This document shows positions 29,937 to 47,705 of a stretch of 64,000 nt of DNA, piece after piece. Position 1 is the first letter of the stretch. The number at the start of each line of letters is the position of its first letter. The notes under the pieces are model-generated. The model worked only from the letters and a program-made list of their open reading frames with translations, had not been told where the DNA came from and did no database searches. Source of the DNA: Streptomyces sp. L2 (GTDB lineage: Bacteria > Actinomycetota > Actinomycetes > Streptomycetales > Streptomycetaceae); the NCBI RefSeq assembly GCF_004124325.1, contig NZ_QBDT01000001.1, positions 2,046,001 to 2,110,000 of the forward strand, written 5' to 3'. A program made the translations under genes and the position numbers.

Positions 29937-32327
29937 TCACGCCTCCAGTTCGGCCAGCCGCTCCCGCACCCGGTCGAGACCGGACCGGTCGCCGCCGTCC
30001 TCGTAGGCCGCGGCGGCGGCGCGCAGGTCCGTCGCCTCCGCCGCCGGCCGGCCGGAACGCCGGTGGCAGGAGGCCCGCATCTCGAACGTGTCGGCGAGTT
30101 GCCGCGCCGCACCCGCCCCCGTCATGGCGGTGACGGCCTCGTCCAGGCACACCCCGGCGAGATCCAGCTCGCCCGCGTCCAGGTGGGCTTCGGCCAGACT
30201 CATGTAGACGCGGCCCGCGTTGTACGTGTCGCCGCCGTCCGGAAGGCGGCGGAACCGGGCGAGCGCGTCGTGCAGCCTTGCGACGGCCGCGGGGAAGTCC
30301 CGCTGCTTCGCCAGGGCGCGGCCGATGTGGTGCTCCAGCAGGGCCGTGGCACGCGGCACGTCCTCCCGGCCGGCCTCGCCGGGACCGATCCCGGCGGTGA
30401 TCTCCCGCGCCTCCTCGAAGCAGCGCTGGGCTTCGGCGAATTCCCACTGCTTGAGCCGCAGCAGGCCCAGCGCCTCGACGGCGGTGGCCTCCCCGCGCCG
30501 GTGGCCGCAGTCCCGGTCCGCTTCCCTGGCCCGGCCGAGGGCGTCCTCGGCCTCGGCGGCCCGGCCGACCTGCATGTAGGCGAAGGCGAGTTGAGTCAAC
30601 ATGCGGCCCACGGCACGCGGGTCGCCGAACTCCGCCGCGTCGCGCCGGGCGGCCTCGACGCCCAGCAGGTGCGTGTCGATCCACTGAGCGTGGAAGCCGA
30701 GCAGCAGGTGCAGGCCCCACAGCGCCTCGCACAGCTGCCACACGAGGTCGTTGAAGCCGTGGTGCGCGGCGGCCCGGACGACAGCGGCGAGGTTCTCCCG
30801 CTCGCGGCGGAGTCCGGCCAGCGCGTGCCTCCCGTCCGCCGGGTCACGGTTCGCGGGGAGGGTGAGCCCCTGGAAGGCGGGGCCGAGCCGCCAGCGCAGC
30901 GGCAGGACGCGGAAGTCCGCGGCGGCGGCGAACCGCAGCTCGGCGACGGCCACCCGGCGGACGGCCGCGGCCACGTGTACGTGACCGTCCTCGGCGACCG
31001 CCAGCTCGCGGGCGTGCGCCCGGGTCAGGTCGTGGAAGCGGTAGCGCTCCTCCCCGACCTCCTCCAGCAGGTGCACGCGGGCCAGTTGCTCCAGCAGCCG
31101 CCGGGCGTCCTCCTCACCGACTCCGGCCGCGTGTGCGGCGCACCGGACGGTCACGGTCGGCCAGGCCCACACCGCGATCGCACGGTAGAACGCGGCGCAG
31201 TCGGGGTCCAGTTCGGCATAGGCGGCGTCCTGGCTGACCCGGACGGGATCGGCGGGGGCGTCGTCCGGTCCTTGCCGACGCATGGCGCCGCCCTCCTGGT
31301 CGTGGCCGTGGATCCGGTCGGACAGCTGCCTCGCCACACGCTCCCAGGACAGGTGTTCCCGTACGGCCAGCCCGGCGCCCGTCGTGCAGACCGCGAGCGG
31401 GATTCCGCCGGTGCCCTCGGCGACGGCCCGGACGACCGCGTCCGGGGCTGCCCGGCGGGTGTCCCCGACGATGCGCCGCATGAGACTGATGGAGTCCTCG
31501 GTCGACAGCGGCCCCAGGGAGTACGACCGGGCCCCGTGCCCTGCCACGAGCCGGCCGAGGCGGTGCCGGCTCGTCACCAGGACCAGGCTTCCGGGCGAGG
31601 CCGGGAGCAGGGGGACGACCTGCGCGTCGCCGTGGGCGTTGTCCAGTACGACGATCAGGCTCCGGTCGGCGGTGCAGTCACGGTACAGATCCCGCTGGCG
31701 GGCCTCGTCGCCGGGCACCATGGCGGGGGGCACCCCCAGCCGTTCGAGGAAGCGCGCGAGCACGTCGGAGGGTGCGAGCGCCGTACCGGCCGAGGCGCCG
31801 CGCAGATCGGCGAACAGGGCGCCGTCGGGGAACCGGTCCCGCAGCTCGGACGCGCAGTGGACGGCGGCCTCGGTCTTGCCGATGCCGCCCGGCCCGACGA
31901 GCGCCGCGATCGCCGGCGCGCCGGGTGCGCGCGACTCGTCGTCCAGCAGCGCGGTGATCCGGGCGAGCACGTCCGCGCGGTCGGTGAACACCGCCGTGGC
32001 CGGCGGCAGCATCCGGGGCCGGGAAGCGCCGTGGGCCACCGCGGGCACGGTGCGTACCTCCAGCCAGGAAGCCTCCCGGACCCACTCGCGCACCTCGCGC
32101 GCGAACTCGGGTGAACTGCGGGCGTGTTCCAGCAGCCGTGCCGCGGCGGCCGTGCGTTCGGCACCGGTGACCGGAAGGGTGGGGTCACCGCCGTCGGCAC
32201 CGGTCCGGCCGAGCAGTCCGTAGAGCCTTTCGGAGGCCCGCCGGCCCACTTCGCCGCCTGCCCCGGACAGTGCGCCGGACGCGACCGTCCCGACCGCCGA
32301 CAGCACCAGTCCCGTCATCGCTTCCAC
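29937..32327 (-). CDS. STAND-family NB-ARC ATPase with TPR-like repeats
   Basis: The 796-residue protein has a short N-terminal segment rich in Gly, Ala and Val (TGLVLSAVGTVASGALSGAGG), then an NB-ARC NTPase: Walker A GPGGIGKT (145-152), Walker B RSLIVVLDN (222-230) and the LVTSR sensor (250-254). A winged-helix region follows (RYRFHDLTRAHARELA), then from about residue 500 TPR-like helices (RMLTQLAFAYMQVGRAAEAEDAL, RVYMSLAEAHLDAGELDLA). No SARP DNA-binding domain is present, so it is not an AfsR-type activator. STAND proteins act as signal-gated switches; effector and ligand are unknown. GTG 32327 is chosen for its GGGGGAG Shine-Dalgarno with 6-base spacing; ATG 32318 is the alternative. Confidence 0.85.
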   Translation of the reverse strand: MEAMTGLVLSAVGTVASGALSGAGGEVGRRASERLYGLLGRTGADGGDPTLPVTGAERTAAAARLLEHARSSPEFAREVREWVREASWLEVRTVPAVAHGASRPRMLPPATAVFTDRADVLARITALLDDESRAPGAPAIAALVGPGGIGKTEAAVHCASELRDRFPDGALFADLRGASAGTALAPSDVLARFLERLGVPPAMVPGDEARQRDLYRDCTADRSLIVVLDNAHGDAQVVPLLPASPGSLVLVTSRHRLGRLVAGHGARSYSLGPLSTEDSISLMRRIVGDTRRAAPDAVVRAVAEGTGGIPLAVCTTGAGLAVREHLSWERVARQLSDRIHGHDQEGGAMRRQGPDDAPADPVRVSQDAAYAELDPDCAAFYRAIAVWAWPTVTVRCAAHAAGVGEEDARRLLEQLARVHLLEEVGEERYRFHDLTRAHARELAVAEDGHVHVAAAVRRVAVAELRFAAAADFRVLPLRWRLGPAFQGLTLPANRDPADGRHALAGLRRERENLAAVVRAAAHHGFNDLVWQLCEALWGLHLLLGFHAQWIDTHLLGVEAARRDAAEFGDPRAVGRMLTQLAFAYMQVGRAAEAEDALGRAREADRDCGHRRGEATAVEALGLLRLKQWEFAEAQRCFEEAREITAGIGPGEAGREDVPRATALLEHHIGRALAKQRDFPAAVARLHDALARFRRLPDGGDTYNAGRVYMSLAEAHLDAGELDLAGVCLDEAVTAMTGAGAARQLADTFEMRASCHRRSGRPAAEATDLRAAAAAYEDGGDRSGLDRVRERLAELEA

Positions 32328-32432
32328 CCGGCACTCCCCCCAACTCGCCCGACCCGTCATCGTATCGCCGCGTGCGCACCCGGTTGCGGAACGTTGGTTT
32401 CCGGATGGGCCGCCGGCGGGCACAACTCAGCC

Positions 32433-32990
32433 ATGCTGCACGGCATCGACGTAAGCGCGTATCAGTCGTCTTCGTACGGTACGGACGGGCTGTCCTTCGC
32501 CTTCATCAAGGCGACGGAGGGCCACTCGTACGTCAACTCGCGGCTCACCGCCCAGACCAAGACCGCCCGTGACGCCGGCCTGGTCGTCGGCTTCTACCAC
32601 TTCCTGTGGCCGGGCAACCTCACCACCCAGGCCGAGTACTTCGTCCGGCACGCCCCCGAGAAGGCCGGCGACATCCTGGCCGTCGACTGGGAGACCACCG
32701 GCGACGGCACCCACGCGAGCAACAAGGAGAAGGACACCTTCATCAGGAAGGTGAAGGAATTACGGCCGCATCACCGCGTGATTCTTTACACGAACCGCAA
32801 CTATTGGCTGACCGTCGATACGACGTCGTATGCCGGTGATGGCTTGTGGATCGCTGACTACGTCACGGCTGGCCACCCGCGGATCAAGGCAAAATGGCGC
32901 TTCCACCAGTACAGCAGTGAGCCCCACGACAAAGACGTGGCCGCCTTCGCGAGCAAGGCAGATCTGAGAAAGTGGGCCACCGGCACCTGA
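32433..32990 (+). CDS. GH25 family muramidase-like protein without signal peptide, contains a TTA codon
   Basis: The 185-residue protein begins MLHGIDVSAYQ and has the GH25 catalytic D-x-E motif in ILAVDWETTG (Asp85, Glu87), plus AFIKATEG and GFYHFLW, the hallmarks of N,O-diacetylmuramidases that cut the MurNAc-GlcNAc bond. There is no signal peptide, unlike most Streptomyces secreted lysozymes, so export would need another route or it acts inside. Codon 110 is TTA (32760-32762), implying bldA dependence. The second half has lower GC than the neighbours, and the endonuclease gene behind it is also lower GC. Confidence 0.85.
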   Translation: MLHGIDVSAYQSSSYGTDGLSFAFIKATEGHSYVNSRLTAQTKTARDAGLVVGFYHFLWPGNLTTQAEYFVRHAPEKAGDILAVDWETTGDGTHASNKEKDTFIRKVKELRPHHRVILYTNRNYWLTVDTTSYAGDGLWIADYVTAGHPRIKAKWRFHQYSSEPHDKDVAAFASKADLRKWATGT

Positions 32991-33893: not shown

Positions 33894-34574
33894 ATGGTTA
33901 GCCGTACCGCCTCCTTCTGGGAGGCTCTTGATGCCGGGGACCGGGCTGCTCTGCGGCGGGCCGGTGTGCGCATGGTGCTGGAGGCGGACCGGCAGTTCCT
34001 CACCCAGGGGGAGGACTCGGACCATCTGATCGTGCTGGTCGGCGGGTGGGTGAAGGTGGTCGCGCAGTCGCACGCCGGGTACCGGGCGCTGCTCGCGCTG
34101 CGCGGGCCCGGTGAACTGCTGGGCGAGCAGGCCTCGGTGGAGCGGGGACGGCGGCGTTCGGCGTCGCTGGTGACGGCCACCCCGGCCGAGGTGCTGAACC
34201 TGCCGGCCGGGCGCTTCCATGTGCTGGCCCGCTCCCGGCCCCAGATAGCCGCCGCGCTGGAGCGGACGCTGTCGCAGCGGCTGCGGGAGGCCGACGTGCA
34301 GCGCGCCGGGATCACCGAGCCGGTGCCCGCCCGGCTCGCCGGGCTGCTGCTGGACCTGGTGGAGCGGTGCGGGCTGCCGGACGCCGACGGCACCGGGCGC
34401 CGTATCGGACTGTCGCTGTCCCAGGACGACTTGGCGGGGCTGGCGCTGACCTCGCGGCGCACGGTGAGCCGGGTGCTGGAGCAGTGGCGGGCCCGGGGCT
34501 GGATCGTGACCGGGCGGCAGACGGTGACCGTGCGGGCCGTGGACCAGCTCAAGCGGCTGGCCCACGGGGGGTGA
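33894..34574 (+). CDS. Crp/Fnr family transcriptional regulator
   Basis: The 226-residue protein has an N-terminal cyclic-nucleotide-binding-like jelly roll (GEDSDHLIVLVGGWVKVV, LRGPGELLGEQASVE) and a C-terminal winged helix with the recognition segment LSQDDLAGLALTSRRTVSRVLEQW. The cAMP-contact arginine and Thr/Ser of true CRP are not evident in ERGRRRSASL, so the ligand may differ. A strong AAGGAGGGAGAGG precedes ATG 33894. It converges on the membrane kinase and may be a regulator of the accessory region, though no link is shown. Confidence 0.9.
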   Translation: MVSRTASFWEALDAGDRAALRRAGVRMVLEADRQFLTQGEDSDHLIVLVGGWVKVVAQSHAGYRALLALRGPGELLGEQASVERGRRRSASLVTATPAEVLNLPAGRFHVLARSRPQIAAALERTLSQRLREADVQRAGITEPVPARLAGLLLDLVERCGLPDADGTGRRIGLSLSQDDLAGLALTSRRTVSRVLEQWRARGWIVTGRQTVTVRAVDQLKRLAHGG

Positions 34575-34621: not shown

Positions 34622-36322
34622 TCAGCAGGGGGTGTAACTCACTCCTTCCCTCGGCGCCTTGTAGATGCGGTAGCCCTTGGAGTGCGTCAGCTGGTAGGTG
34701 ATCGTCCAGTCGTCGCAGGTGTCGTCGGGGCTGCTCGCCGGGCCGTAGCCCGCGTCCTGGTGGCTGCGGAAGCTGAGCGTGGCCAGGGTGTGACCGCTGT
34801 CGCTCTGCAGGCTGTTGAGGACGAACTCGCTGTCCCGGGTGGTCGACATGACCTTCTTCCAGTCGGCACGGCTGGAGTCGGAGCCGAGGTCGACGATGCC
34901 GCTGCCGGGGTCGTAGTACCTCAGCGCGGTGTCGTAGCGGTGCTGGTTGACCGCGCCGAAGAACGCGGCGAACATGCCCGCGACGTGCGGGGCCCGGGAG
35001 TCGTCGGCGACCGCCGAGAAGTCGACGGAGGCGCCCTTCGCGACGACCAGGGTGGGGTCCTTCGACTCGGTGGGGGTGGGGGTCGGGGTGGTGTCCGACG
35101 GGGTGGGTCCGGAGCCGGAGCCCGAGTCGTCGTCCCGGTAGGTGCCGGCGGTCTGGGTCGCGGAGGACGTGGTCGCCCGGCTGTCGCCCGTGTTGTGCAT
35201 GTGGGTGACCGTATAGCCGCCGATCGCGCCCACCAGCAGGGCCGCCAGCAGCCAGCCGGTCACCCGCCTGCCGGTCGAGGCGGCGGCCGGCCTCGGGGGC
35301 GCGGGGCGTGGGGGCGTGGGACGCGGAGGTACGGGACGGGGTGGCACCGGCCTCGGCGGCGGCACGGACTGCGGGGGCGTGGCCTGCGTGGGCGTGGGTT
35401 TGGGCGCGGGTGGCGGGGTGGGGCGGCGGCGGAGGCGGTCGTGCGCGAGTTCCAGCTCGGGGAGCCATTCGGCGAGGGCCGGCCTGCGGCCCGGGTCCGC
35501 GTTCTGGGCGCGGTTGGCGAGGCCGGCCAGCCCCGTGGACAGCGCGCGCAGCGGGCCGGGGTCCCGGTCGTCCTGGTCGCGGTTGAACAGCCGCAGGGCG
35601 AGCAGGCCGAACTTCCAGGAGTCGGCGGCGGTCGTGGCCTTCAGCGCCTCGGGCACCTCCCAGCTGGGGGTGTCGACCTGGTCCAGCACGTCCTTGCCCT
35701 GGTGGCGCATGGAGTCGCAGTCGATGAGCAGGCAGCGGGCCGGCCCCTGGAGGGTGAACAGCACGTTCTTCGGGGAGAGGTCGCCGACCACGATGCGGTG
35801 CGCGTGCAGCCAGGCGAGGGTGCGGGCGAGGTCGAGGAGCAGCTCCACGCGGCGCGTGTCGTCGACGACCAGGCCGATGCGCCGGCCGTAGTCGTCCAGG
35901 TTGAGCAGGTATTCCAGTGCCTGCAGCTGGGCCCCGCCCAGGATCGGGCTGTGCAGTTCGTACGCCGGTGTCACCCGGTGCATCAGGAAGCCGGTGACCT
36001 TGGTGCTCGGGTTGCGCGAGGGCAGCGGGTCGGTGGGGGTGTCGCCCCGGTAGACCAGGGCGAGCGGCCAGGTGGTCCGCTCGTCGAGGAAGGCGCGGTC
36101 GGCCGGGCCGAGCAGCTGGCGGAAGCAGACCATGTCGTGCAGGACGTCGGCGTCGTACGAGACGACCGGCAGGTACTCCTTGTACGCCAGGTACTCCCCG
36201 GCGAACCGGCCGGGCGGGTCGGGGACGCCGTAGACGATCCCCTGGCCGCCGTTGCCGAGGCCGTGGTCGGTGTACCGGCCGAGCTTGTCGGGCAGTACCC
36301 AGGCCATCTGTACGGCGGTCAT
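34622..36322 (-). CDS. TerY-triad membrane Ser/Thr kinase-like protein
   Basis: The 566-residue protein has an N-terminal kinase domain with glycine loop GNGGQGIVYG, Lys48 in YLAYKEYLP, a catalytic loop VGDLSPKNVLF (Asp181, Asn186) in place of HRDLKPxN, and LIDCDSM (Asp201) in place of DFG, as in TerY-associated kinases. A Pro/Thr-rich linker precedes one transmembrane helix (GWLLAALLVGAIGG, ~residue 355) and an extracellular Ser/Thr-rich stalk and NTF2-like region ending in a terminal Cys. Its ATG overlaps the phosphatase stop (ATGA). It could sense an outside signal and phosphorylate partners opposed by the PP2C protein. Confidence 0.88.
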   Translation of the reverse strand: MTAVQMAWVLPDKLGRYTDHGLGNGGQGIVYGVPDPPGRFAGEYLAYKEYLPVVSYDADVLHDMVCFRQLLGPADRAFLDERTTWPLALVYRGDTPTDPLPSRNPSTKVTGFLMHRVTPAYELHSPILGGAQLQALEYLLNLDDYGRRIGLVVDDTRRVELLLDLARTLAWLHAHRIVVGDLSPKNVLFTLQGPARCLLIDCDSMRHQGKDVLDQVDTPSWEVPEALKATTAADSWKFGLLALRLFNRDQDDRDPGPLRALSTGLAGLANRAQNADPGRRPALAEWLPELELAHDRLRRRPTPPPAPKPTPTQATPPQSVPPPRPVPPRPVPPRPTPPRPAPPRPAAASTGRRVTGWLLAALLVGAIGGYTVTHMHNTGDSRATTSSATQTAGTYRDDDSGSGSGPTPSDTTPTPTPTESKDPTLVVAKGASVDFSAVADDSRAPHVAGMFAAFFGAVNQHRYDTALRYYDPGSGIVDLGSDSSRADWKKVMSTTRDSEFVLNSLQSDSGHTLATLSFRSHQDAGYGPASSPDDTCDDWTITYQLTHSKGYRIYKAPREGVSYTPC

Positions 36323-37623
36323 CGCGGCCCTCCCGGCCCTGCGGCGCGCGGCCACAGGGCCAGCAGGGTGCGGTCGTCGTCGAAGGTCTCCCGGTAGAAG
36401 TCGAGCATGTAGGCGAAGGCCAACGGCGGCACCGGGGTGGCGAGTTCGTTGGCGAAGAGGCGGGCGACCTTGCCGCGGCCGTCACCGACGGGGTCGCCGA
36501 ACCCGTCGGTGCCGACGAGCAGCACGGTGCCCGGGTCGAGGCGGAACTCGGCGGGCCTCGCGTCGGCGGGGACGTACGGCATGGGCTGGACGACGGAGGA
36601 CACCAGCCCGTCGGCGCCGGCCCGCTTGCCGCCCTGCAGCGGGTACAGCTCCTGGTACTTGATCGCCCAGGCGCCGGAGTCGCCGACCGAGATCAGCGCC
36701 ACGTGGACGCCGTCCCGGGTGGGGGTGGCGGCGCCGGCGACGAGAGTGGTGGCCAGCAGGTCGGCCGTCTCGTCGACGGTGGCGTCCCTGCCGCGCAGCA
36801 GCCGGGTGGCCTGCTCGCGCAGCTGCCAGTGGACGGTGCCGAGCAGTTTGGGCCAGTCGGTGACCAGGCCGCCGCTCGCCCGGACCTGGGCGAGCAGTTC
36901 GTCGACGGCGCTGCGGCAGGCGAGCTGGGAGCCGATGTGCGGCTGGCTCGCGTCCGAGACGCCGTCGGCGACGGCGAACACGACGGTTCCGGTGGTCTCG
37001 TCCCAGGAGGCGGCCGCGTCGTCCTCGCGGGGGCGGCCCTCGACCCGGTGCGCGTAGCCGCGCACGGAGGCCAGGCGCAGGTCGAGGGCGGGCGTGGACC
37101 AGCCGTCGCAGACGGTGTCGGGCCGGTACGACAGCACGCGTCCGGGCGGCCTGGGCGTGAAGTCGGGGACCACGCCGTCGATCACCATCGGGTGCCAGTA
37201 CCGGCCGAAGTCGTCCAGCGGGGGCGCGGGGTGCTGCGCCGGGGGCGACGGCGGGGCGTGCTGGGCGTGCTGGGCGTGCTGCGCCGGGGACTGCGGCCGG
37301 CCCTGCGACGGCCCCGGCTGCTGCGGCCCCGGCTGCGACGGCCCCGGCTGCTGCGGCCCCGGCCTACCGCCCGGCGCCGTCGCGGGAGTGGGGGCGGGGC
37401 CGGGGGCGACGGGCGGCCAGGGGCCCGGCTGCTCCCAGTCGTACATCTGCGCGGGCTGGGCAGGCTGGGCCGGCTGATCGGGCCGGTCGGGCCGGTCGGG
37501 CTGCCCGGTCGCCGGCTCGGACGGCGGGTACAGCGCCGGAGCCGGCCCGGGCGGGGGCGGGGGCTGGCGCCGCTTCTCGCTCCGGTGGTCGTCGTCGGAG
37601 CGGCGGTGCGGGAACAAGGCCAC
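36319..37623 (-). CDS. PP2C family protein phosphatase of the TerY triad
   Basis: The 434-residue protein starts with a ~150-residue Pro/Gln/Ala-rich disordered stretch containing QQPGPSQPGP repeats, then a PP2C catalytic domain: VFAVADGVSDASQPHIGS with the metal Asp, ALISVGDSGAWAIK and VLLVGTDGFGDPVGDG. It should remove phosphate from targets of the kinase. GTG 37623 lies one base after the vWA gene's stop and its own end overlaps the kinase start, so the three are co-translated. Confidence 0.9.
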   Translation of the reverse strand: MALFPHRRSDDDHRSEKRRQPPPPPGPAPALYPPSEPATGQPDRPDRPDQPAQPAQPAQMYDWEQPGPWPPVAPGPAPTPATAPGGRPGPQQPGPSQPGPQQPGPSQGRPQSPAQHAQHAQHAPPSPPAQHPAPPLDDFGRYWHPMVIDGVVPDFTPRPPGRVLSYRPDTVCDGWSTPALDLRLASVRGYAHRVEGRPREDDAAASWDETTGTVVFAVADGVSDASQPHIGSQLACRSAVDELLAQVRASGGLVTDWPKLLGTVHWQLREQATRLLRGRDATVDETADLLATTLVAGAATPTRDGVHVALISVGDSGAWAIKYQELYPLQGGKRAGADGLVSSVVQPMPYVPADARPAEFRLDPGTVLLVGTDGFGDPVGDGRGKVARLFANELATPVPPLAFAYMLDFYRETFDDDRTLLALWPRAAGPGGPR

Positions 37624-37624
37624 C

Positions 37625-38305
37625 TCAGATCACATCGATCGCGACGGTGAAGCCTTCCGGCTTGTCCACCACGAGTTGCGGGGCCGCCGAGCCGAGCGAA
37701 CGGCCCGAGGAGATCACGCTCTTGGTGAGCGCGGTGCAGAACTTGGCGATGGCCGCGCCCACATCGACACCCTTGTTGGCGACGAAGCCGAACTGCGCCT
37801 CGGTGGCGACCTGGTTGATGGTCTGCGCGTCGGCGTCGACGATGCCGCAGGCGATGATGTTCGGCGCGCCGAGCGTGGCCTGCCGGTCGACGAGCCTGCG
37901 GTGCACGGACTGCCAGTCCTCGCCGTGGTTGGGCAGTCCGTCGCTGAGGAAGAACACGGCGGGCCGGTGCACCTGGTAGTTCTCGCGCTTGAGGGCGGCC
38001 ACGTCGTCGGGTATGCGGCGGATCAGATCCTCGAAGGCGGCCGCGTAGCTGGTCATGCCGCGGGTGCGCAGCTGCGGGAACTCGCCGGCGCTGCGCAGGT
38101 CGACGAGGTGGACGCGTTCGATCACGTCGTCCGAGAAGCCCAGTACGGAGAAGCGCACCTTGGCGGCGGCCATCGGCTCGCCGAGCAGCGCCTGGTGGAG
38201 TGAGCGCAGGCCGGCGTTCAGCTCGTCCATGTGCTCGGTCATCGACCCCGACTCGTCGGCCAGGACGTAGATGGGGAGCAAGTGCCCCCGGTTGCTGTCC
38301 ATCAT
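37625..38305 (-). CDS. TerY-like von Willebrand factor A domain protein
   Basis: The 226-residue protein is a single vWA domain with an intact metal-adhesion site: DESGSM (Asp17, Ser19, Ser21), TRGMTSYAAAFEDL and FFLSDGLPNHGEDW. This is the TerY form first seen in tellurium-resistance loci, where it operates with a PP2C phosphatase and a kinase, exactly the next two genes here. It likely binds a phosphorylated or metal-bound partner. The upstream SPFH/vWA gene ends 45 bases before it in the same direction. Confidence 0.92.
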   Translation of the reverse strand: MMDSNRGHLLPIYVLADESGSMTEHMDELNAGLRSLHQALLGEPMAAAKVRFSVLGFSDDVIERVHLVDLRSAGEFPQLRTRGMTSYAAAFEDLIRRIPDDVAALKRENYQVHRPAVFFLSDGLPNHGEDWQSVHRRLVDRQATLGAPNIIACGIVDADAQTINQVATEAQFGFVANKGVDVGAAIAKFCTALTKSVISSGRSLGSAAPQLVVDKPEGFTVAIDVI

Positions 38306-38350
38306 CGTCGTTCCGTTCCCTGCGTGGTGGGTTGGTGCGGTGCTGTCAGG

Positions 38351-40291
38351 TCAGTAGGCGTCCTCGGCGAGGCGGAAGCCGTCGGGCGGGCCGACCGAGA
38401 ACTGCGGGTCGCCGGAGGCGATGCGGCGGCCGTAGCCGACGACGCCGTCCCGCAGGAACGCGGCGCAGCTGTGGGCGGCGGACACGGCGTCCTGGTGCGG
38501 CGGGGCCATGAAGCCGAACTCGGGCCGGGTGGCGACCGCGCGGATCGCGAACGGGTCGGCCTGGCCGAGGCCCAGCGCGATGACGTGCGGCGCGGCCGGG
38601 TTGGTCTCGACGTCGGTGAGCGCGCGGTGGGCGTCCCGCCAGCCGCCGCCCTCGTCGGGGGCGCGGCCGCTGACGACGTACACGATGGGCCGCAGCACCT
38701 GTCCGCCCTGCGCCTTGACCACGCCGACGTCCTGTCCGACGACCGTCCGCAGCTGCTGGAAGGCGTGCGTGTACGACAGTCCCGGGCGCGCGGTGAGCAG
38801 GGGGGTGGCGGTGGCGGGGGTGACCGTGGCGAGCTGGAGCCGGGGTTCGCTGGTGGCGGCCATGCCGAGGACCGAGAGCCGGAGCCCGGCGGACACCTCG
38901 GGGGCGGCGCACAGCGCGGCGTGCAGGTCGCTCAGGCCGCGGTTCAGCTCGGCGAGACAGTCCTTGGCGGACTCGTCGAGGGCGAGGTAGATGAGCGCGG
39001 TGTAGGCGGGGGTGGGCGAGGTGCCGACGGGAGCGGGGCCGCCGGGGTGGACGGGCTGGGTCAGGGTCGGGGTGTAGGGCGGGGCGTACGGCGCGGCGTA
39101 GCCCGTCGCACCCGGGGCTCCCGTGCCTGGGGCCGCCGTGCCGGGTGCCGCCGCGCCCGGGCCCCCGCTGCCCGGGACCCCCGCGCCCGGTGTCGGCGTA
39201 CCCGGGCCGGGCGGTCCCGGCGCGTACGGGGACGGGGGCGCGGACGTGTGGGGCGCGGCGCCGGCCGCCGGACCCGGGGCGAGCTGGCCGGCCGGGGCGT
39301 CCCAGGGGCGGGCGCCGGGGAGCTGGGGGGTGGCCGGCAGGGCCGCTGTCCCGTCGCCGCCGGCGGCCCGCATCACCACGCCGTTCAGCAGGTGCCGCAT
39401 GACCTCCAGGTCGCCGGCCTGTACGAGGTTCTTGTCGGCCATCGCCTGGAACAGTTCCAGCGCACGCTGGTTCTGCAGCTCGGCCGTGGCGAACCGGGCC
39501 TCCTCCAGTTTGCGCAGCATCTCGAAGGCGCCGGCCGCGTCCTCGGGGTGGGTGTTCATGTACTGCCGGATCAGGCTCTCGCTGTCGATGGGCACACCGC
39601 GCAGCGCCTCCGCCTGCCGGGCGGCCTGCTCGATCCGCAACTCCTGCTGCTTCGCCTCCAGTTCGCCCTGCCGTACGACGTGCCCCAGGTTGGGCGTGTG
39701 GTCGGCCTGGCCCAGCGTCTCGCGCCGGCCCGCGTCGATCAGGGACTCCAGGTAGGTCAGGGACTTCGCGTCGGGCCGTACCGACACCTGGCAGTCGTAG
39801 ACGACCAGGCCCTCCGCCAGCACGATCGGCTGGGCGCACAACTGGTTGAGGTGGTGCTGGAGTTCGAAGGAGCGCTCGATGGCGAACCGCTGTCCGGCGC
39901 CGTGGAACCGGCGGACCAGGTAGCCGTGGACGAGGGGCAGGGCGTCGTCGATGCCGGCCCGTACGAGGTTCTTGGCACCCTCGGAGCCGTCGACGCGGAA
40001 GGAGAAGTCGACCTTGACCTCGAAGGCGTGCACGCCGTCCTGGGAGACGATCGGGTTGCGGCCGAGGACCGCGGTGCGGCTGCGGGGCCGCAGGTCGACC
40101 TCGTAGCGGGTGCGGTAGCGGGAGAACACCTGCTGCGAGGCGGTCATCGGGCGGCCGCCGTCGAAGCAGTCCACCTCGCCGGAGGCGGTGGCGTAGACGA
40201 CCGCGAGGTGCGGGTCCTTGGCCTTGGTGGGCCCGACGGCCACCCGGGGCACGGGCTCGCGGCTGACGATCAACGAGACCGGGTCGCTCAC
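38351..40291 (-). CDS. SPFH-like and degenerate vWA domain fusion protein
   Basis: GTG 40291, behind AGGAGGTGG, opens a 646-residue protein. Residues ~1-250 resemble SPFH/band 7 domains (RYRTRYEVDLRPRSRTAVLGRNP, AFEVKVDFSFRVDGSEGAKNLV), ending in a coiled coil (LEAKQQELRIEQAARQAEAL). A Gly/Pro/Ala-rich linker around residues 345-430 leads to a C-terminal vWA domain with ALIYLALDESAKDCLAELNRGL, in which the metal motif DxSxS is reduced to DESAKD. It is paralogous in fold to the TerY-like protein encoded next. It may scaffold the NTPase and the triad. No transmembrane helix is apparent. Confidence 0.75.
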   Translation of the reverse strand: MSDPVSLIVSREPVPRVAVGPTKAKDPHLAVVYATASGEVDCFDGGRPMTASQQVFSRYRTRYEVDLRPRSRTAVLGRNPIVSQDGVHAFEVKVDFSFRVDGSEGAKNLVRAGIDDALPLVHGYLVRRFHGAGQRFAIERSFELQHHLNQLCAQPIVLAEGLVVYDCQVSVRPDAKSLTYLESLIDAGRRETLGQADHTPNLGHVVRQGELEAKQQELRIEQAARQAEALRGVPIDSESLIRQYMNTHPEDAAGAFEMLRKLEEARFATAELQNQRALELFQAMADKNLVQAGDLEVMRHLLNGVVMRAAGGDGTAALPATPQLPGARPWDAPAGQLAPGPAAGAAPHTSAPPSPYAPGPPGPGTPTPGAGVPGSGGPGAAAPGTAAPGTGAPGATGYAAPYAPPYTPTLTQPVHPGGPAPVGTSPTPAYTALIYLALDESAKDCLAELNRGLSDLHAALCAAPEVSAGLRLSVLGMAATSEPRLQLATVTPATATPLLTARPGLSYTHAFQQLRTVVGQDVGVVKAQGGQVLRPIVYVVSGRAPDEGGGWRDAHRALTDVETNPAAPHVIALGLGQADPFAIRAVATRPEFGFMAPPHQDAVSAAHSCAAFLRDGVVGYGRRIASGDPQFSVGPPDGFRLAEDAY

Positions 40292-42702
40292 CGGCCACCT
40301 CCTGGCTGTGTGGGACGGGCGTACGAGGCGGAGGGGCCGGCTGCGGCGCCCACCGCGGACGAGGCGGACGGAGTGGCGGCGGCGCGCAGAGCGGCGCGGA
40401 GGACGGTCGAGGAGCGGGGCAGGGACAGGAAGCGGTCGGGGTCGGTCCAGCGGGCCGCGTGGTGGTCCAGCAGCATCGCCGTACGGGGGCTGGTGCGGGC
40501 CACGTCCTCCACCAGGTGCCGGACCATGTCGTCGAGGAGCTGGGGATCGGTCTCGGCGCGGGCGAACCAGCCCTCCAGGACGCTGCCGGCGTCGTCGGAG
40601 AAGAGTTCGCCGTTGATCACCTCCGCCCACAGGTAGCCGAGCAGCCGGCGGAGTTCGTGGCCGGGTGGCTGCTCGGCGGCCAGGGTGAGCAGGCTGGGCC
40701 GGGGCTGCCGGGTGGAGCCGGGCGGTTCCTCGGTGAGCAGGGCGTTGGCGAGGATCAGGAAGGCGAGGTGGCCGGAGGGCCTGCTGGACGGTTCGTGCGC
40801 CATCTCGGCGACGGCCCGCAGGACCAGTGGCGCGTGCCCGGCGACGTCCTGTTCGAGCAGGTCGGAGAGGGCGTCGCCGATGGCGATGGCCACGTCGATG
40901 TGGTCGACGGTGCCGAGCCGGGTCAGCCGCTGCACGGCGGTGGCGAGGTCGGCGCCGCCGAGGCAGAGGCCGTAGGCGCGGGCGGCGGCGGCCTGGGTCT
41001 GCCACGCGCCGCTCATGTACCAGCCGTCGACGAGGGCGCGCACGCCGGTGCGCACCTGGGGGTCGCGCAGGCAGACCCGCAGGGCGTAGGCGATCGCCTC
41101 GCGGCGGAACGCGCCGGTGTGCTCGGCGTGCAGCCAGCCGGGGAACACCTGGGTGGCGATGTGGTCGAAGGACTCGGTGGCGATCAGGCCGAGGGCGGTC
41201 CCGGCGAAGCTGCGCACGGACAGCGACGGCTTGTCGACCAACGCGCCGAGCCAGGCGACGATTTCGCGCTGGATGCGGTACTCGGACCAGACGTGCCGGA
41301 TGATCCGGGCCGGGTAGCCGGGGTCGCGGTACTCGGCGACCGTGCAGGGCAGCAGGCCGAGGTCGCCCTTGGTGACGGCGGAGACGGTACGGGCGCGCAG
41401 CTGGTCGGCGAGGAGCCGGCGGGACTGGCTGAACGGGTCCTGGCTCAGGGGTACGGGCCCGTCCCGCACGCTGTCGGCGAGGACTCCGCGCTCGCTGCGG
41501 AACCGGTCGAGGAGGGCGCTCGCGGCCATGGCCACGTGCTCCTGCGGGAGTCCGCCGAGGACGGCGAGGGCGACGGCCTGGGTGCGCAGTGCGGTGTCGC
41601 CGAGCGACTCGAACCACTCCTCGGGGGTCTCCCCGCCGGTGTGGTCCATCCGCGCGCGGACCCGCTCGGGGTCGATGGCGCCGGTGCCGTGCTCGTGTGC
41701 GAGGACCTCGGCGAGGCGGGCGGCGTGCAGGCAGCCGGCGGCGCTGTCGAGCAGTTCGGTGACGAGTCCGGGGACACCGGCGGAGGTCAGCGCGCCGTCG
41801 GTGTCCGGCTCGCCGAGCCGGTGGGTGAGGTGGGCGCGCAGCACGCGGTCGAGGGTGTCGGGGCGGGTGATGCGCTGCACGTACTCGGTGACGTCCCGGC
41901 CCAGCTCGGACTCGGGCCCGGCGGTCACCACGAGGTGGGCGTCGGCGCGCAGCAACAGGTCTTCGAGTCCGGCGAGTTGGGCGGCGCGCAGTTCGGACAG
42001 GTCGACGGGCCGGTCGACGAGGAGTCCGGCGCCGGTGCCGAGCTGGGTGAGTTCGGTGAGGCGGGTCAGTTCGGCGACGGAGTCCAGCAGGAAGAAGGTC
42101 TTGGCCTGGGCGGCGAGGAGGAGGCGTACGGCGGCCGCGGTCTTTCCGGCGCCGAGGGGGCCGCGCAGCACGACCGAGCGGCGCTGCCAGGCGTCGGCGA
42201 CGACGTCGTCCCAGCGGGGCGGGGGCTGGAAGGTGTGCCGGACGGTCTCCACGACGCCGGCGGCCAGGGCGCGCAGGACGACGCCTCGTTCGCTGCCGGC
42301 CTGGATGACGATCTTGTCGCCCTCGACCCGGTCGCCGCCGATCCGGGTCCAGGCGGTGCGCAGCAGTCCGGCCCGCAGGCTGCCGGCGCCGACCCGGGCG
42401 GTGGCCTGACTGGCGCTCTCGCTCCTGCCGACGGTGTTGTCGGGGGCGGCCGGCCCGCCCGGCTGGGCGGTGTTCGGCGCGCCCGCCTGGTGGTCGGCGC
42501 CGTGGGCGCCGCCGGAGCCGGGATCGGGTGCGGTGCCGCCGCTGCCGGGCGAGGGAGCGGCCGGCGCCCGCGGGCCGGCGGGGCCGTTCGGACTGGCCGA
42601 ACCGTTCGGGCCGGTCGGGCCGGGGGACGCCGTCGGGGTGACGGCCGGTGCGGCCGTCGTCGTCGGCGCGGCGGCTGGGCCGGTCCCGGCGGGGGTGGTC
42701 AT
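40288..42702 (-). CDS. P-loop NTPase with disordered N terminus (conflict-type)
   Basis: The 804-residue protein has ~100 residues rich in Pro, Gly, Ala and Thr, then GGDRVEGDKIVIQ, echoing the Gly-Asp repeats of the upstream protein. A Walker A GPLGAGKT (181-188) with FFLLDSVAEL and LVVTAGPESELG follows, and a long helical C-terminal region without clear repeats. The NTPase resembles STAND or NACHT-like switches but is divergent. The ATG overlaps the upstream stop (ATGA) and the stop overlaps the next GTG. A scaffold with upstream sensor and downstream SPFH/vWA partners is the natural reading. Confidence 0.7.
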   Translation of the reverse strand: MTTPAGTGPAAAPTTTAAPAVTPTASPGPTGPNGSASPNGPAGPRAPAAPSPGSGGTAPDPGSGGAHGADHQAGAPNTAQPGGPAAPDNTVGRSESASQATARVGAGSLRAGLLRTAWTRIGGDRVEGDKIVIQAGSERGVVLRALAAGVVETVRHTFQPPPRWDDVVADAWQRRSVVLRGPLGAGKTAAAVRLLLAAQAKTFFLLDSVAELTRLTELTQLGTGAGLLVDRPVDLSELRAAQLAGLEDLLLRADAHLVVTAGPESELGRDVTEYVQRITRPDTLDRVLRAHLTHRLGEPDTDGALTSAGVPGLVTELLDSAAGCLHAARLAEVLAHEHGTGAIDPERVRARMDHTGGETPEEWFESLGDTALRTQAVALAVLGGLPQEHVAMAASALLDRFRSERGVLADSVRDGPVPLSQDPFSQSRRLLADQLRARTVSAVTKGDLGLLPCTVAEYRDPGYPARIIRHVWSEYRIQREIVAWLGALVDKPSLSVRSFAGTALGLIATESFDHIATQVFPGWLHAEHTGAFRREAIAYALRVCLRDPQVRTGVRALVDGWYMSGAWQTQAAAARAYGLCLGGADLATAVQRLTRLGTVDHIDVAIAIGDALSDLLEQDVAGHAPLVLRAVAEMAHEPSSRPSGHLAFLILANALLTEEPPGSTRQPRPSLLTLAAEQPPGHELRRLLGYLWAEVINGELFSDDAGSVLEGWFARAETDPQLLDDMVRHLVEDVARTSPRTAMLLDHHAARWTDPDRFLSLPRSSTVLRAALRAAATPSASSAVGAAAGPSASYARPTQPGGGR

Positions 42703-43907
42703 GAGCGGCCGTCCCCGGCACCCGTGCCACGCCGGTCGCCCGGGGCACCCGGCCGGGGCTCGGGTCTCGCGTCCTTGAAGTAGTCGCCGTGGACGGTGAT
42801 CCGGTCGCCGCCCACGTAATCGCCGTGGACGGTGAGCTGGTCGCCGTCCACGTGGTCGCCCTGGATCGTGATGTGGTCGCGGCCGGCGTAGTCACCGTCG
42901 ACCGTGACCTGGTCACGGCCCGCGTAGTCACCGTCGACCGTGACCTGGTCACGGCCCGCGTAGTCACCGTCGACCGTGACCTGGTCGCGGCCCGCGTAGT
43001 CGCCCTGGACGGATAACTGGTCCTGGCCCACGCGGCCTTGGCCCACGCGGTCGCGCCCGATGTAGGCGTCGACGGCGTCGCGGCCGTCGGTTCTGGCGCC
43101 GTCGCCCCGGTCAGGCCGGCCGCCGGTGTCGTCGCCGCCGGAGCCACCGGCGTCGTAGGCGTCGTATGCCTGCCGGCCGTGCTGGGCGGACGGCGGGACC
43201 GGGCTCCCCGGTTCGGTCCCGCCGCCCGCTGCTCCCGCGGTACCGCCCGCGCCGGCCGGTCCCCCGGAGCCGGCTCTCGCGCGTGGCGGCTCCCCCGAGT
43301 CCGCGGGAAGTCCGGGCGGTGCCGGGTAGCCGGGCATGGTGACCCAGCCCCGGCACGGCTCGCCGTGCTTGGTGACGAAGTCGGCGGGCAGGTACGCCGC
43401 CGCGTCGATGCCCGGGTAGCGGCCCCGCACCACCTTGCGGTGCACGGCGTCGGAGACGACCACCACCAGGTGTGCGCGGCCGGCCTGCGCGAGGGCCCGC
43501 TTGACGGGGGCCGCGTCGACGAGCCGGGCCACGTCGTTGATGCCGGTGCCGGTCCACCGCTGGCCGTGGCGCAGGACCAGGCCCTGGCCGAGGCCGAGGC
43601 GCAGCCGCATCCGGTGGTCCTCGCTGTACGTGTCGCGGTGCCGGGCCAGCGCGTCGTCCAGCCCGCGCACCAGTTCACGCAGAAGCCGGGTGGGGCGCGT
43701 CTCGGGCGGCAGGAGCAGCAGCATGCCGTCGCCGCGGTCCTGCGCCGTGTACTGCTCCGGTCCGATACCGGCGCGCGCCAGCGCGAACTCGACGGCTTCG
43801 TACAGGCCGTCGTGCAGCGTGGCCTGGGTGGTCTCCGGGCGCAGGCTGAAGTCCTCGATGTCGAGGAGCGCGATCCAGTAGTCCTGCGGATCGTCCTGTA
43901 CCACCAT
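42699..43907 (-). CDS. Class III cyclase-like domain protein with Gly-Asp repeats, contains a TTA codon
   Basis: The 402-residue protein opens the operon. Residues 10-195 match a nucleotidyl cyclase homology domain: Asp16 in ALLDIEDFS, Asp60 in DRGDGMLLLLP as metal ligands, RLGLGQG, and GTGINDVARLV, where Asn124 and Arg128 fit the catalytic Asn/Arg pair, so activity is possible. A Gly/Ala/Pro linker leads to about eight 12-residue repeats (residues ~283-378) of type GDYAGRDQVTVD, which may form a solenoid or assembly surface. Codon 298 is TTA. A GGGAGG precedes ATG 43907. Confidence 0.75.
   Translation of the reverse strand: MVVQDDPQDYWIALLDIEDFSLRPETTQATLHDGLYEAVEFALARAGIGPEQYTAQDRGDGMLLLLPPETRPTRLLRELVRGLDDALARHRDTYSEDHRMRLRLGLGQGLVLRHGQRWTGTGINDVARLVDAAPVKRALAQAGRAHLVVVVSDAVHRKVVRGRYPGIDAAAYLPADFVTKHGEPCRGWVTMPGYPAPPGLPADSGEPPRARAGSGGPAGAGGTAGAAGGGTEPGSPVPPSAQHGRQAYDAYDAGGSGGDDTGGRPDRGDGARTDGRDAVDAYIGRDRVGQGRVGQDQLSVQGDYAGRDQVTVDGDYAGRDQVTVDGDYAGRDQVTVDGDYAGRDHITIQGDHVDGDQLTVHGDYVGGDRITVHGDYFKDARPEPRPGAPGDRRGTGAGDGRS
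42888..42995 (-). repeat. Three near-identical 36-bp coding repeats
   Basis: Within the Gly-Asp repeat section a 36-base unit recurs three times with starts at 42888, 42924 and 42960, each encoding GDYAGRDQVTVD. Flanking units are more diverged. Near-identity at DNA level suggests recent unit duplication, so copy number may vary between strains without breaking the frame. Confidence 0.85.
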
Positions 43908-44187
43908 GTGCGGCCTCCCGTACCGGTGCGGGGTCGCGTGCGCCCCGCGCCCTCAACTGGATAGAACGCGCCGTGTGCGGTGTCTACGCCAACTGGCGCA
44001 CAGCGGCCTCTTGCGCGAACCGCTGTTTCCGACACCGCGTCACAGGAGGCGTACGATGCCCCGCTCAGGTTTATCGGAAACCCGCGCACGGAAACTGGCG
44101 AAGCCTCATATTCCGTGCCGGAGACGCGCGTTGATCGTCAAACCTGCCAACTCTGGCCACTCGGCGCATCTCTCGCACCGCGCACGG
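43908..44187. other. 280-base intergenic region upstream of the TerY operon
   Basis: This gap must hold the promoter of the six-gene operon. CGCCA-AC-TGGCG at about 43989-44000 is a near-perfect dyad about 85 bases upstream of the first start codon and could be an operator. TTGACG occurs on the minus strand near 44138 but no well-spaced -10 was found. No small gene was seen. Confidence 0.35.
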
Positions 44188-46213: not shown

Positions 46214-47046
46214 GTGCGGAGTCTGCGGGACGTGCTCGACGGGGCGGCGCGGGGCGTCTTCCCGCCGGCCGACGGCACCACGACGGTCGTGCCGCAGCCC
46301 TCGCCGCGCGACGCCGGTGTCCTCGCCCTCACCGCGCACTCGGTGGTCTTCACGGACGAGGACCCGGAGTGGGTGCGCGAGACGCTGGACGCGGTCGCCG
46401 GTGACTGCGACGCCCTGGCCGCACCCATGAACGCGCGGTTCCTCGCCGCGCTGATGGACCGGACCGGCCGCCGTACCGACACGATCGACGTGCTGCTGGT
46501 CGCCCCGCCGCTGCCGGCCGGGGACGGCGGTCCGGAGCTGCGGGAGATCGGTGACCCCGGGCATCCCCGGGTGGTGGCCGCCCGTGAGCGGCGGGACGGG
46601 GTGTGGGTGGCGGACGGCGGGGTGCTGGGTCCTGTCGTCACATTCCCGCCGTCCGCCCGGAGGGCGGGCCCCGCGGCGTCAGGTGCGTGCTCTGGGGGTC
46701 CCCCCGGCCGGAGGCTGGGGGAGCGTGCATGGCGTCGCGGGGCTGGGGGCACCTCCCGGCCGGAGGCTGGGGGAGGGAATGTGACGACAGGGCCTAGCTC
46801 GGGCGCGGGGTCGCGGGGCGGGTGGAGGTCGCCGTGGAGGTCGAGGAGGGGGTACGGCACCGGGGGCTGGGGCGGGCGCTGGTGGCGGCGGCGCGGCGGC
46901 TGGCCGGGGAGCCGGTGTGGGCGCGGGTCGCGGCGGGGAACGCCCGCAGTCTGCGGGCGTTCCAGGCGGCCGGCTACCGTCCGGTGGGTTCGGAGGCGCT
47001 GCTCAGTGCCACGGGGCGTAGAACGGGTTGCTCTCGCAGCCGCTGA
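46214..47046 (+). pseudogene. GNAT acetyltransferase gene disrupted by a MITE
   Basis: GTG 46214 after AAGGAG starts VRSLRDVLDGAARGVFPPADG, and the frame is coding to about 46627, ending in VWVADGGVL. The acyl-CoA binding part (VEVEEGVRHRGLGRALVAAARRLAG, with the GNAT RGLGRAL motif) resumes in another frame from about 46797 and ends at 47046. Between them is a ~166-base element with 20-base terminal inverted repeats. Intact homologues read through without it. The leading frame stays open past the insertion into unrelated residues, so no functional enzyme is expected. The tail overlaps the end of the convergent toxin gene by 44 bases. Confidence 0.85.
46628..46793. mobile_element. MITE-like element with 20-bp terminal inverted repeats
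   Basis: The left end GGTCCTGTCGTCACATTCCC (46628-46647) matches the reverse complement of the right end (46774-46793) at 19 of 20 positions. There is no internal gene. The interior holds two copies of a GGCCGGAGGCTGGGGGAG repeat (near 46703 and 46757) common in Streptomyces intergenic DNA. A 4-base CTGG/CTAG at the junctions may be an imperfect target duplication. Ends of this type are mobilised by a transposase in trans. Confidence 0.8.
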
Positions 47047-47629
47047 GGATCTCCGTCTTGGTCTCCTTGTCGACCGGGCAGGCGCCGACGATGTACTGCC
47101 GGGCGATACCGCCGGGGAAGGCCACCTCGACCTGGTCGGCGTACTTGTGGGCGGAGCCGATCGTCTTGTTGACGTCGATGCCGCCGGGCGCGTCGACGTA
47201 GTAGTTGTACTTCGACTTCCAGGCCTTGAAGAGGTCGTGGTCGTACGTCGTCGAGACGTACGGCGAGGGCTGGTTGACGAGGACGTACTTCTCGATGTCG
47301 TACTGCCCGTTGATGACGTCCTTCGGCTGGAAACCCTCCTCGAAGACGGTCTCCGGGTCGCGGTTGTCGCTGCGCCACAGGGTGCCGCAGGTGGTGCGCC
47401 ACGCCGGCTTCGGGGTGATCCGGTCGAGGTCGGCGCGCCGGTCGGCGGCGGCCCGGAGCTTGTCGTCGAACTGGGGGCAGGAGGCCGCGGCCTTCGCGGC
47501 GGGGGCCGCGTGGACCGTCCTGGCCGGGGCCGCGGTGGGCGCGGTGGCGGCCGTGGTGGCGAGGACGGCGCCGAGGGACAGGACGGCGGCGGTGCCGCGG
47601 CGGCGGCGCGAGCGAGTGGTGCTGGTCAT
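47003..47629 (-). CDS. Secreted pierisin-type DNA ADP-ribosyltransferase (ScARP/Scabin-like)
   Basis: The 208-residue protein has a signal peptide (to about residue 40) and an ADP-ribosyltransferase toxin domain: TLWRSDNRD (the Arg of the R-STS-E class), VSTTYD, and the catalytic Q-x-E in DQVEVAFPGG. It fits the ScARP (S. coelicolor) and Scabin (S. scabies) group, which modify guanine in DNA and nucleotides with ADP-ribose from NAD+. Cysteines CPQ, CGT, CP and CES can form disulfides outside the cell. No dedicated immunity gene is next to it. ATG 47629 is preferred; a GTG three codons upstream is possible. Confidence 0.9.
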   Translation of the reverse strand: MTSTTRSRRRRGTAAVLSLGAVLATTAATAPTAAPARTVHAAPAAKAAASCPQFDDKLRAAADRRADLDRITPKPAWRTTCGTLWRSDNRDPETVFEEGFQPKDVINGQYDIEKYVLVNQPSPYVSTTYDHDLFKAWKSKYNYYVDAPGGIDVNKTIGSAHKYADQVEVAFPGGIARQYIVGACPVDKETKTEILSGCESNPFYAPWH

Positions 47630-47705
47630 ACGGAGCACGATGGCCGCTCGCCCGCGCCTCGCGCGGGACCGTCACCCGTCCGTCGGCGCGTCAACTGACT
47701 CTCGG

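Follow-up and report, generated by a model that had tools for sequence, protein, structure and literature searches.

A Streptomyces locus whose class III cyclase-like protein and NTPase share a short motif: a candidate NLR-type signalling system with cyclic-nucleotide output

Which protein senses and which responds in a gene cluster that sets a nucleotide cyclase-like protein and a P-loop NTPase beside a kinase, a phosphatase and a vWA protein? The question is raised by six consecutive minus-strand genes, cyc-ntp-spfh-vwa-pp2c-kin, in the window analysed here (64,000 nucleotides of Streptomyces sp. L2), and the same six genes claimed in a preliminary description were returned by open reading frame analysis and by a codon-composition gene finder. 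Most junctions are the 4-base overlaps or gaps of 1–45 bases given in that description: cyc (42699–43907) and ntp (40288–42702) overlap by 4 bases, as they do in 27 of 28 relatives; the GTG start of spfh overlaps the ntp stop by 4 bases, which places spfh at 38351–40291 and corrects its earlier limits; vwa (37625–38305) lies after a gap of 45 bases and pp2c (36319–37623) after a gap of one. The exception is kin (34622–36355), where a GTG start at 36355 would give a 37-base overlap; the alternative ATG at 36322, which gives a 4-base overlap, is the likelier start. A boundary drawn around six genes is also too narrow, as it omits a Crp/Fnr-type regulator gene on the plus strand (crp, 33894–34574), convergent with kin, and a putative operator upstream of cyc. 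The component parts are of known kinds; no paper on this gene set was found among the matches listed from open-licence PMC text, and the combination is without a description in that searched literature.

Although Pfam does not recognise cyc as a cyclase, the structure model firmly supports the class III cyclase-like fold that had been proposed for it, covering approximately residues 1–195. D16, D60 and N124 are kept in 30/30 cyclases and R128 in 29/30, residues that we take to be those of the class III metal and transition-state sites, and the idea that cyc is devoid of enzyme residues was rejected on this ground. The presumed base-recognition positions do not carry the ATP-type pair, a feature that would suit a non-catalytic protein. 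PADLOC PycC models matched neither the window cyclase, at E 0.1, nor three divergent cyclases. The cyclase domain is followed by a disordered linker and a C-terminal GD motif of about six 12-residue units. Tandem Repeats Finder detects 6.4 copies of a 36-bp repeat with 85% matches (42780–43010, minus strand), encoding six GDxxxxD units at residues 302–369 that are predicted to form short beta strands (pLDDT approximately 60), so the reported 12-residue Gly-Asp repeats are confirmed. They are not special to this cyclase, since its relatives also carry the motif at the C-terminus, usually in a single copy, and the window holds an amplified form.

The crp product has a cNMP-binding domain (E 5.5e-13) and a Crp helix-turn-helix (E 2.1e-16), with the cassette regular expression matched in 32/32, and its residues 20–133 match a PADLOC PycTIR model (E 1.7e-12). 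A Crp gene is present in 35 of the 36 testable entries; the one entry without it lacks the cyclase too. A Crp-type gene also lies by the cyclase in five fetched stretches without a triad match (L048, L069, L070, L071 and L072); at L066 the cyclase is present and a Crp match is absent. Homologues of the Pycsar effector PycTM are found in 18/38 entries and again at L048, L069 and L071, and none was found in this genome. Because the presumed catalytic residues are kept and the Crp gene stands by the cyclase even where the triad does not, the cyclase is probably a messenger-producing output rather than a sensor. A conserved, palindrome-like putative operator, TGTGCGCCAGTTGGCGTAGACA (43981–44002, minus strand), begins 95 bp upstream of cyc and is the sole exact match in the genome. 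A putative operon promoter, TAGACA-17 bp-TATCCA (43958–43986, minus strand), can be read from the sequence, with its first hexamer inside the operator. The operator was not found before the cyclase in 7/7 Micromonosporaceae loci or in the divergent loci scanned.

The ntp product has a Pro/Gly/Ala-rich N-terminus with one GD motif, a STAND/AAA+-type P-loop NTPase and a helical-repeat C-terminus. Pfam recognises it as neither NB-ARC nor NACHT, and its match to nSTAND3 (E 0.023) falls under the family cut-off. Foldseek listed SAMD9, a STAND-TPR protein, NOD2 and Avs4, as well as AAA+ motors, with query TM-scores of at most 0.21 in the rows shown, and the best rows of a VIA comparison were AAA+ proteins. 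The NTPases of L049 and L050 match the NTPase profile at E 1.5e-13 and 2.4e-11; they were missed by the filtered scan and found again with filters off.

The feature that links these two proteins is the GD motif. The NTPase copy, IGGDRVEGDKIVI (42304–42342, minus strand; residues 121–133), matches the cyclase tail, and relatives carry the motif in the NTPase N-terminus, mostly inside a disordered stretch. At divergent loci the motif is altered, yet the copies in the cyclase or other effector and in the NTPase agree within the locus; at some of these loci the partner of the NTPase is a TIR or EAD1 protein instead of a cyclase. In a position-limited pairing test on 10 loci, own pairs scored 56 against 27 for mismatched pairs (0/100,000 permutations), with search ranges set after the motifs had been seen; three choices of range gave 0, 0 and 1 of 100,000. 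The 10 loci were drawn from 15 divergent or sister loci, leaving out L049 (a near copy of L050), L052 and L053 (of the GD class of the window), and L067 and L073 (effector-NTPase pair not recognised); L069 was excluded from the permutations as a sister of L048. The partner gene at L068 is on the opposite strand and was chosen because the motif was seen there; without this locus the result was 0/200,000, and with a third locus also dropped it was 6 to 9/200,000, of which approximately 5 are the true order itself. The motif match is not above shuffles at two of 11 loci (L048 and L066), and that of the window locus is weak, its score being reached by 23/1000 shuffles. A first form of the test also gave 0/20,000 permutations but was dominated by Pro/Ala/Gly-rich linkers and badly cut NTPase heads, while masking of low complexity gave 1/100,000 (11/100,000 without the window) with a mask that hid several true motifs. 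Within the GD class, own pairs share 7.00 of 13 identities against 6.42 for cross pairs (0/20,000 permutations); relatedness is uncontrolled in this comparison and we therefore do not rely on it.

With modest confidence, we read the locus as an NLR-type signalling system with cyclic-nucleotide output, in which the NTPase would activate the class III cyclase through the homotypic motif, the Crp protein would read the messenger, and the SPFH/vWA protein and triad would scaffold or gate the response. The alternatives considered here overlap and are not mutually exclusive. SPFH proteins and transmembrane kinases have roles in membrane stress, and the SPFH-like protein, the transmembrane kinase and the dedicated operator and regulator would all fit a switch under Crp control that serves envelope stress or development and has no part in conflict. 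We regard such a switch as somewhat unlikely, as the change of motif from locus to locus, the interchange with TIR or EAD1 and the patchy occurrence (a full-length NTPase in 2 of 40 other members of the genus sampled) would, by comparison with known families, be typical of conflict systems.

Within the NLR-type reading, a more specific proposal can be put forward tentatively, as somewhat short of an even chance: that the NTPase is a receptor whose activation spreads to a second-messenger enzyme when a locus-specific motif is templated in a prion-like way, the motif being a private key between the NTPase and its cyclase (or TIR or EAD1 protein), with the cyclic nucleotide feeding a Crp switch and, in some strains, PycTM. 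Alternatively, the motif might serve simply as a docking tag, or its two copies might both attach to a third protein, for instance the SPFH protein; the NTPase would then recruit the cyclase without templated assembly. The shortness of the motif, its single copy in most relatives and the low confidence of the beta prediction for the repeat would all suit a docking tag, whereas the joint change of the motif in both partners between loci speaks against one, and many copies, as in the window, would be more easily explained by self-assembly. A third partner fits poorly with the absence of the motif from all 136 SPFH, vWA, PP2C and kinase proteins. Taken together, we think docking or third-partner binding unlikely.

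The remaining genes could belong to the same system or stand beside it. The spfh product had been described as an SPFH/degenerate-vWA fusion, and the degenerate vWA holds: DxSxS is kept in 2/33 SPFH proteins against 36/36 stand-alone vWA proteins. The SPFH/Band-7-like part is suggested by Pfam Band_7 matches, within an E limit of 0.1, in 3/30 members (the best at 0.0038; the window protein is not among them) and by a profile comparison of the family with the Band-7 proteins of this genome (probability 68%, E 5e-5; 0.1–0.2% for five control families). A Death effector domain match in this protein (E 0.043) was taken as chance. Elsewhere, matches of the third gene to the SPFH profile are clear in L048, L065, L066 and L069, weak in L068, L071 and L072, and lacking for the candidates tested in L050, L051 and L070; nor did Pfam match any of eight divergent third genes. 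The last three genes form the intact vWA, PP2C and kinase triad of the preliminary description, of the type named TerY-P: a TerY-like vWA protein that stands alone and keeps DxSxS (E 2e-4), a PP2C phosphatase with its catalytic motifs (E 8e-18) and a protein kinase (E 1e-5) that has a hydrophobic segment and shows VGD and DCD motifs, the Pfam matches for vWA and kinase lying below the curated cut-off. By loose regular expression counts, catalytic motifs are kept in 34/34 kinases and, per motif, in 31 to 33 of 33 phosphatases. No MoxR or VMAP component was found among the six genes with Pfam and NCBIfam. Gene order apart, the triad has no mechanistic tie to the cyclase in these data.

The conserved co-occurrence of the six genes can be seen in loci fetched by the vWA protein alone, 28/29 of the untruncated ones having all six in the same order, and this order is kept across Streptomyces, Kitasatospora and Micromonosporaceae. 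In distant relatives, though not in close ones, the genes do come apart, the kind of separation that the preliminary description named as evidence against one system: L015 and a second copy elsewhere in this genome, L039, have the triad but not the cyclase trio, and the cyclase-NTPase pair is found without the triad in L048, L051, L069, L070, L071 and L072. Such separation would be expected of two independent units sharing an operon but not a mechanism, a cyclase-NTPase-SPFH-Crp alarm beside a TerY-type phosphorylation triad. We doubt this arrangement, given the order held in close relatives, the 38% identity between the vWA of the SPFH protein and that of the triad, and the renewed meeting of the trio with triad members in the distant L065 and L066 (no kinase was found in L065). 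The opposite assignment made in the preliminary description, of a non-catalytic cyclase-like sensor with the triad as output, is very improbable and is not supported: some conflict-system cyclase domains are inactive according to PMC7159879, but the presumed catalytic residues are kept here in 29 or 30 of 30, the Crp-type receptor tracks the cyclase and not the triad (L066 excepted), and PycTM genes adjoin many of these loci.

If the NLR-type reading is correct, the NTPase would detect a trigger with its helical-repeat end, bind NTP and oligomerise. The clustered GD motifs of the NTPase, whose pairing with the cyclase can be seen in the sequences, would then assemble homotypically with the motif or motifs of the cyclase tail. 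Class III cyclase domains act as dimers, and bringing them together would produce a cyclic nucleotide, as the fold and the kept residues would allow. The Crp protein may bind this nucleotide and act at the operon's own operator, amplifying or ending the response, and roughly half of the relatives may have a second receptor in a PycTM-type membrane protein. The SPFH/vWA protein would position the complex at the membrane, while the transmembrane kinase, PP2C phosphatase and intact vWA protein would set the threshold by reversible phosphorylation. In mycelial bacteria the likely use would be an alarm set off by stress or phage.

The proposed pathway resembles several known systems in part. NLR-associated amyloid pairs (BASS) are encoded by adjacent or overlapping genes and carry a short motif of several classes at the effector C-terminus and the NTPase N-terminus (PMC7889193); as with these pairs and HET-S/NWD2 in fungi, adjacency and an effector-tail/NTPase-head motif of differing classes are found here, from sequence alone. 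The effector here is a nucleotide cyclase, whereas those named in PMC7889193 include Bell, CHAT and TIR proteins; the NTPase is not NB-ARC or NACHT by Pfam, and the locus has genes for SPFH, Crp and triad proteins besides. Pycsar (PycC with PycTM or PycTIR) likewise pairs a cyclase of class III fold with a neighbouring gene for a cyclic-nucleotide receptor, and the PycTM homologues and PycTIR model match described above extend the likeness. In contrast to Pycsar, the window cyclase escapes the PycC models and its tail matches an NTPase, and the window has a transcription factor for its receptor, in a genome where no PycTM was found. An actinobacterial set of kinase, PP2C and stand-alone vWA genes has been linked to GAP1-N2 GTPases (eLife 2020, PMC7159879); the triad here similarly has adjacent genes for a PP2C, a stand-alone vWA and a kinase that seems active and has a hydrophobic segment, but is joined to a cyclase-NTPase-SPFH trio. 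According to the same source, NTP-dependent conflict systems draw on P-loop NTPase, vWA, cNMP cyclase and Band-7 building blocks, with homotypic adaptors coupling effector and core. The VMAP and iSTAND ternary systems with EADs share these blocks and this coupling, whereas the six genes here have no recognised MoxR or VMAP and would be coupled by a short motif, not an EAD domain.

If private-key templating is true, NLR amyloid signalling and Pycsar-type signalling would be joined in one pathway that starts with an NLR-like sensor and leads to a diffusible cyclic nucleotide. Its specificity would be held in a motif roughly a dozen residues long, diversified in parallel at several loci. These loci would then supply natural receptor-effector pairs, candidates for orthogonality, through which the choice of partner by such motifs could be studied; the Crp protein would be a transcription factor dedicated to reading the signal, and the system would also provide a concrete candidate for the regulator of some Pycsar-like cyclases. 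Searched against plasmids, the NTPase had a single partial match, at 27.8% identity.

Reading of the ORFs bore out the six genes of the preliminary description, all on the minus strand at 34622-43907 of the window, which covers 2,046,001-2,110,000 of contig C1 in a genome of 8.07 Mb. They comprise a trio of cyclase (42699-43907), P-loop NTPase (40288-42702) and SPFH/vWA protein (38351-40291), followed by a triad of TerY-type vWA protein (37625-38305), PP2C phosphatase (36319-37623) and TM kinase (34622-36355, its start probably at 36322). The 4-base overlaps and short gaps that had been claimed were also seen: cyclase/NTPase and NTPase/SPFH overlap by 4 bases, as do PP2C/kinase if the later kinase start is taken, and the remaining junctions are gaps of 45 and 1 bases.

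A search queried with the vWA protein alone returned 35 related loci from Streptomyces (the closest named relatives), Kitasatospora, Micromonospora, Actinoplanes, Winogradskya, Pseudosporangium and one Micromonosporaceae MAG. Contig ends interrupt six of these on the relevant side (L004, L010, L012, L014, L026 and L036). The neighbourhood survey proposed in the preliminary description found all six genes, in unchanged order, in 28 of the 29 uninterrupted loci, the exception being L015, which has the triad only. With starts picked by script, 27/28 loci show a 4-base cyclase/NTPase overlap and 25/31 a 4-base NTPase/SPFH overlap. NTPase profile searches of 41 genus and 148 class genomes gave matches in 7 and 10 genomes, respectively, leading to a set of divergent loci. 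The distribution of the system is patchy, since among the 41 genus genomes a full-length NTPase is present only in that of the window and two others, both of which carry the whole operon (L052 and L053). The window, the 35 loci and these two make up the 38 entries counted below, which include one probable duplicate because L052, on a contig of equal length, is probably the same record as L029.

Kinase motifs are kept in 34/34 proteins and PP2C motifs in 31 to 33 of 33, while the stand-alone vWA protein retains DxSxS in 36/36, the T motif in 28/36 and the D motif in 32/36; in the SPFH protein this domain is degenerate. Treating the six genes as one unit is upheld by their co-occurrence, but trio and triad can be separated, as in L015 and L039. 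We regard them as separable modules that have since been joined, because the second triad of the window's own genome (L039) has other partners. In place of the cyclase trio, this TerY-type triad (7447-11959 of G000:C1:872000-889000) has ahead of it, as read by eye, genes for a TM/coiled-coil protein and for a small protein. Members of trio and triad are joined again in the divergent loci L065 and L066; the kinase was not found in L065.

The proposed system is thus real and conserved, but its boundary was drawn too small, leaving a Crp gene and an operator outside. Clustering of flanking genes placed a Crp/Fnr regulator near the kinase in 32 of the 38 entries, at 33894-34574 in the window (cNMP_binding, E 5.5e-13; HTH_Crp_2, E 2.1e-16), and tblastn located the gene in 35 of the 36 entries where it would be visible (L026 and L036 are interrupted). 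It is absent by tblastn from L015, which also lacks the cyclase, NTPase and SPFH genes. The cyclase adjoins the NTPase in eight divergent loci (L048, L051, L065, L066, L069, L070, L071 and L072). A Crp gene lies upstream of it in L048, L069, L070, L071 and L072, where the triad gave no match in the fetched stretch, and a gene with a Crp HTH does so in L051. In L066, which has a cyclase, 16 kb gave no match to Crp; nor did L065, though its contig starts only 293 bases before the cyclase. On these counts Crp accompanies the cyclase at almost every locus that allows a judgement, L066 standing against. A regular expression for the nucleotide phosphate-binding cassette fits 32/32 Crp proteins of the cluster. 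A PycTM homologue sits beside the Crp gene in 18/38 entries (partial in L037; PF18967 verified for L006) and is present in L048, L069 and L071; none was found in the window's genome. L051 has, a few kb away from its first pair, a second cyclase-like gene adjoining a second Crp-type gene (14017-15405).

The operator is a palindrome-like site, TGTGCGCCAGTTGGCGTAGACA, at 43981-44002, beginning 95 bp before the cyclase start. It recurs 80-123 bp before this start in 22/22 Streptomyces/Kitasatospora-group relatives with the start of the cyclase inside the sequence, with at most 3 mismatches in 20, 4 in L031 and 5 in L037, and in 0/7 Micromonosporaceae loci. It occurs once in the window, where 0.01 occurrences would be expected if as many as 3 mismatches are allowed, and once without mismatch in the genome, where seven other matches have 3 mismatches each, compared with two matches of a reversed control pattern. 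The site overlaps a likely -35 element, and we infer that the Crp protein binds it.

The Gly-Asp repeats belong to a motif shared by two of the proteins. Relatives' cyclases carry a short C-terminal motif, xGDxVxGDKxV, mostly in single copy, which the window's cyclase has amplified to about six units of 12 residues; the NTPase N-terminus bears the same motif upstream of its P-loop domain. By a strict regular expression it is present in 26/30 cyclases, 32/33 NTPases and 0/136 SPFH, vWA, PP2C and kinase proteins, and by a looser one in both partners of 29/29 cyclase-NTPase pairs examined. Of the 13 motif residues in the NTPase, 10 fall in a stretch that AlphaFold models below pLDDT 50 (mean of the whole model, 85); the cyclase model has a catalytic domain at pLDDT ~95, a disordered linker and repeats forming weakly predicted beta strands (pLDDT ~60).

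Judged from the divergent loci, this tail/head motif is rewritten locus by locus. Tail GDQIGGASHRADGHGIVNAPGRDQ pairs with head GDDIGGASHRATDGGTVNAAGRDQ in L070, KVVGGDEINY with KVVGGDEITY in L065, and GVAVMGGAGRDIT with GMAVMGGVVGDIT in L051, where the NTPase gene as predicted has to be extended upstream to take in the head. L068 has an opposite-strand EAD1 protein (PF19955, E 4e-12) matching the NTPase head at 15/19 residues. Over 10 loci, in sequence windows picked after the motifs had been seen, the mean local-alignment score was 56.1 for own pairs versus 26.9 for mismatched ones (0/100,000 permutations; 0/200,000 without L068; 6 to 9/200,000 with a third locus also dropped, about the true order's own share). 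When tails were shuffled, at most 3/1000 shuffles reached the own score in 8/11 loci, 23/1000 in the window (z 2.5), 74/1000 in L066 and 575/1000 in L048. The third gene clearly matches the SPFH profile in four of the eight loci (L048, L065, L066 and L069) and weakly in L071 and L072; Pfam Band_7 gave no match in the eight divergent third genes scanned. A DUF4407 membrane protein (10027-11310, E 6e-65) that follows it in L072 is perhaps another output. In L049 and L050 (~5982-11188) a TIR protein takes the cyclase position (PF13676 in L049, E 3e-8). With it stand an NTPase whose head motif matches, as tested in L050, and a TM protein that the SPFH profile does not hit, an arrangement that reads as a TIR version of the motif-sharing pair.

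The locus is best read as a sensor NTPase acting through the cyclase on Crp, with the triad as regulator. Its parts are already known: PMC7159879 describes conflict systems with cyclases, Band-7 and EADs, links a kinase/PP2C/vWA set to GAP1-N2 and, in one place, notes a CRP-like factor with a link to peptide-processing systems; PMC7889193 describes BASS motifs at the N-termini of NLRs and the C-termini of Bell proteins, and PMC11224242 describes Pycsar. No report of an NLR-like NTPase and a cyclase paired by such motifs was found among the matches listed from the open-licence PMC literature, and the gene combination and locus-specific motif pairing appear new.

Several further genes lie near the system. 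Immediately after the kinase gene, L008 (13606-15093) and L011 (13623-15104) have extra cyclase-like and kinase matches, perhaps a cyclase-kinase fusion. At Micromonosporaceae loci a kinase lies on the opposite strand, in some next to a cyclase-like gene. In a Streptomyces subgroup, an endonuclease/exonuclease/phosphatase family gene lies just upstream of the cyclase (L029, 4133-4906, and 8 other entries; PF03372 checked in L029, L052 and L053). In the window, a further STAND-type gene less than 3 kb from the system encodes an NB-ARC protein with TPR repeats (29937-32423, minus strand), and a GH25 lysozyme-like protein (32433-32990, plus strand; PF01183, E 2e-40) belongs to a cluster recurring in 10/38 entries, the window counted. 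About 3 kb from the operon, an open ORF (47003-47638, minus strand) encodes a Scabin-like secreted protein (PF22596, E 3.2e-42), of a family annotated as ADP-ribosyltransferases.
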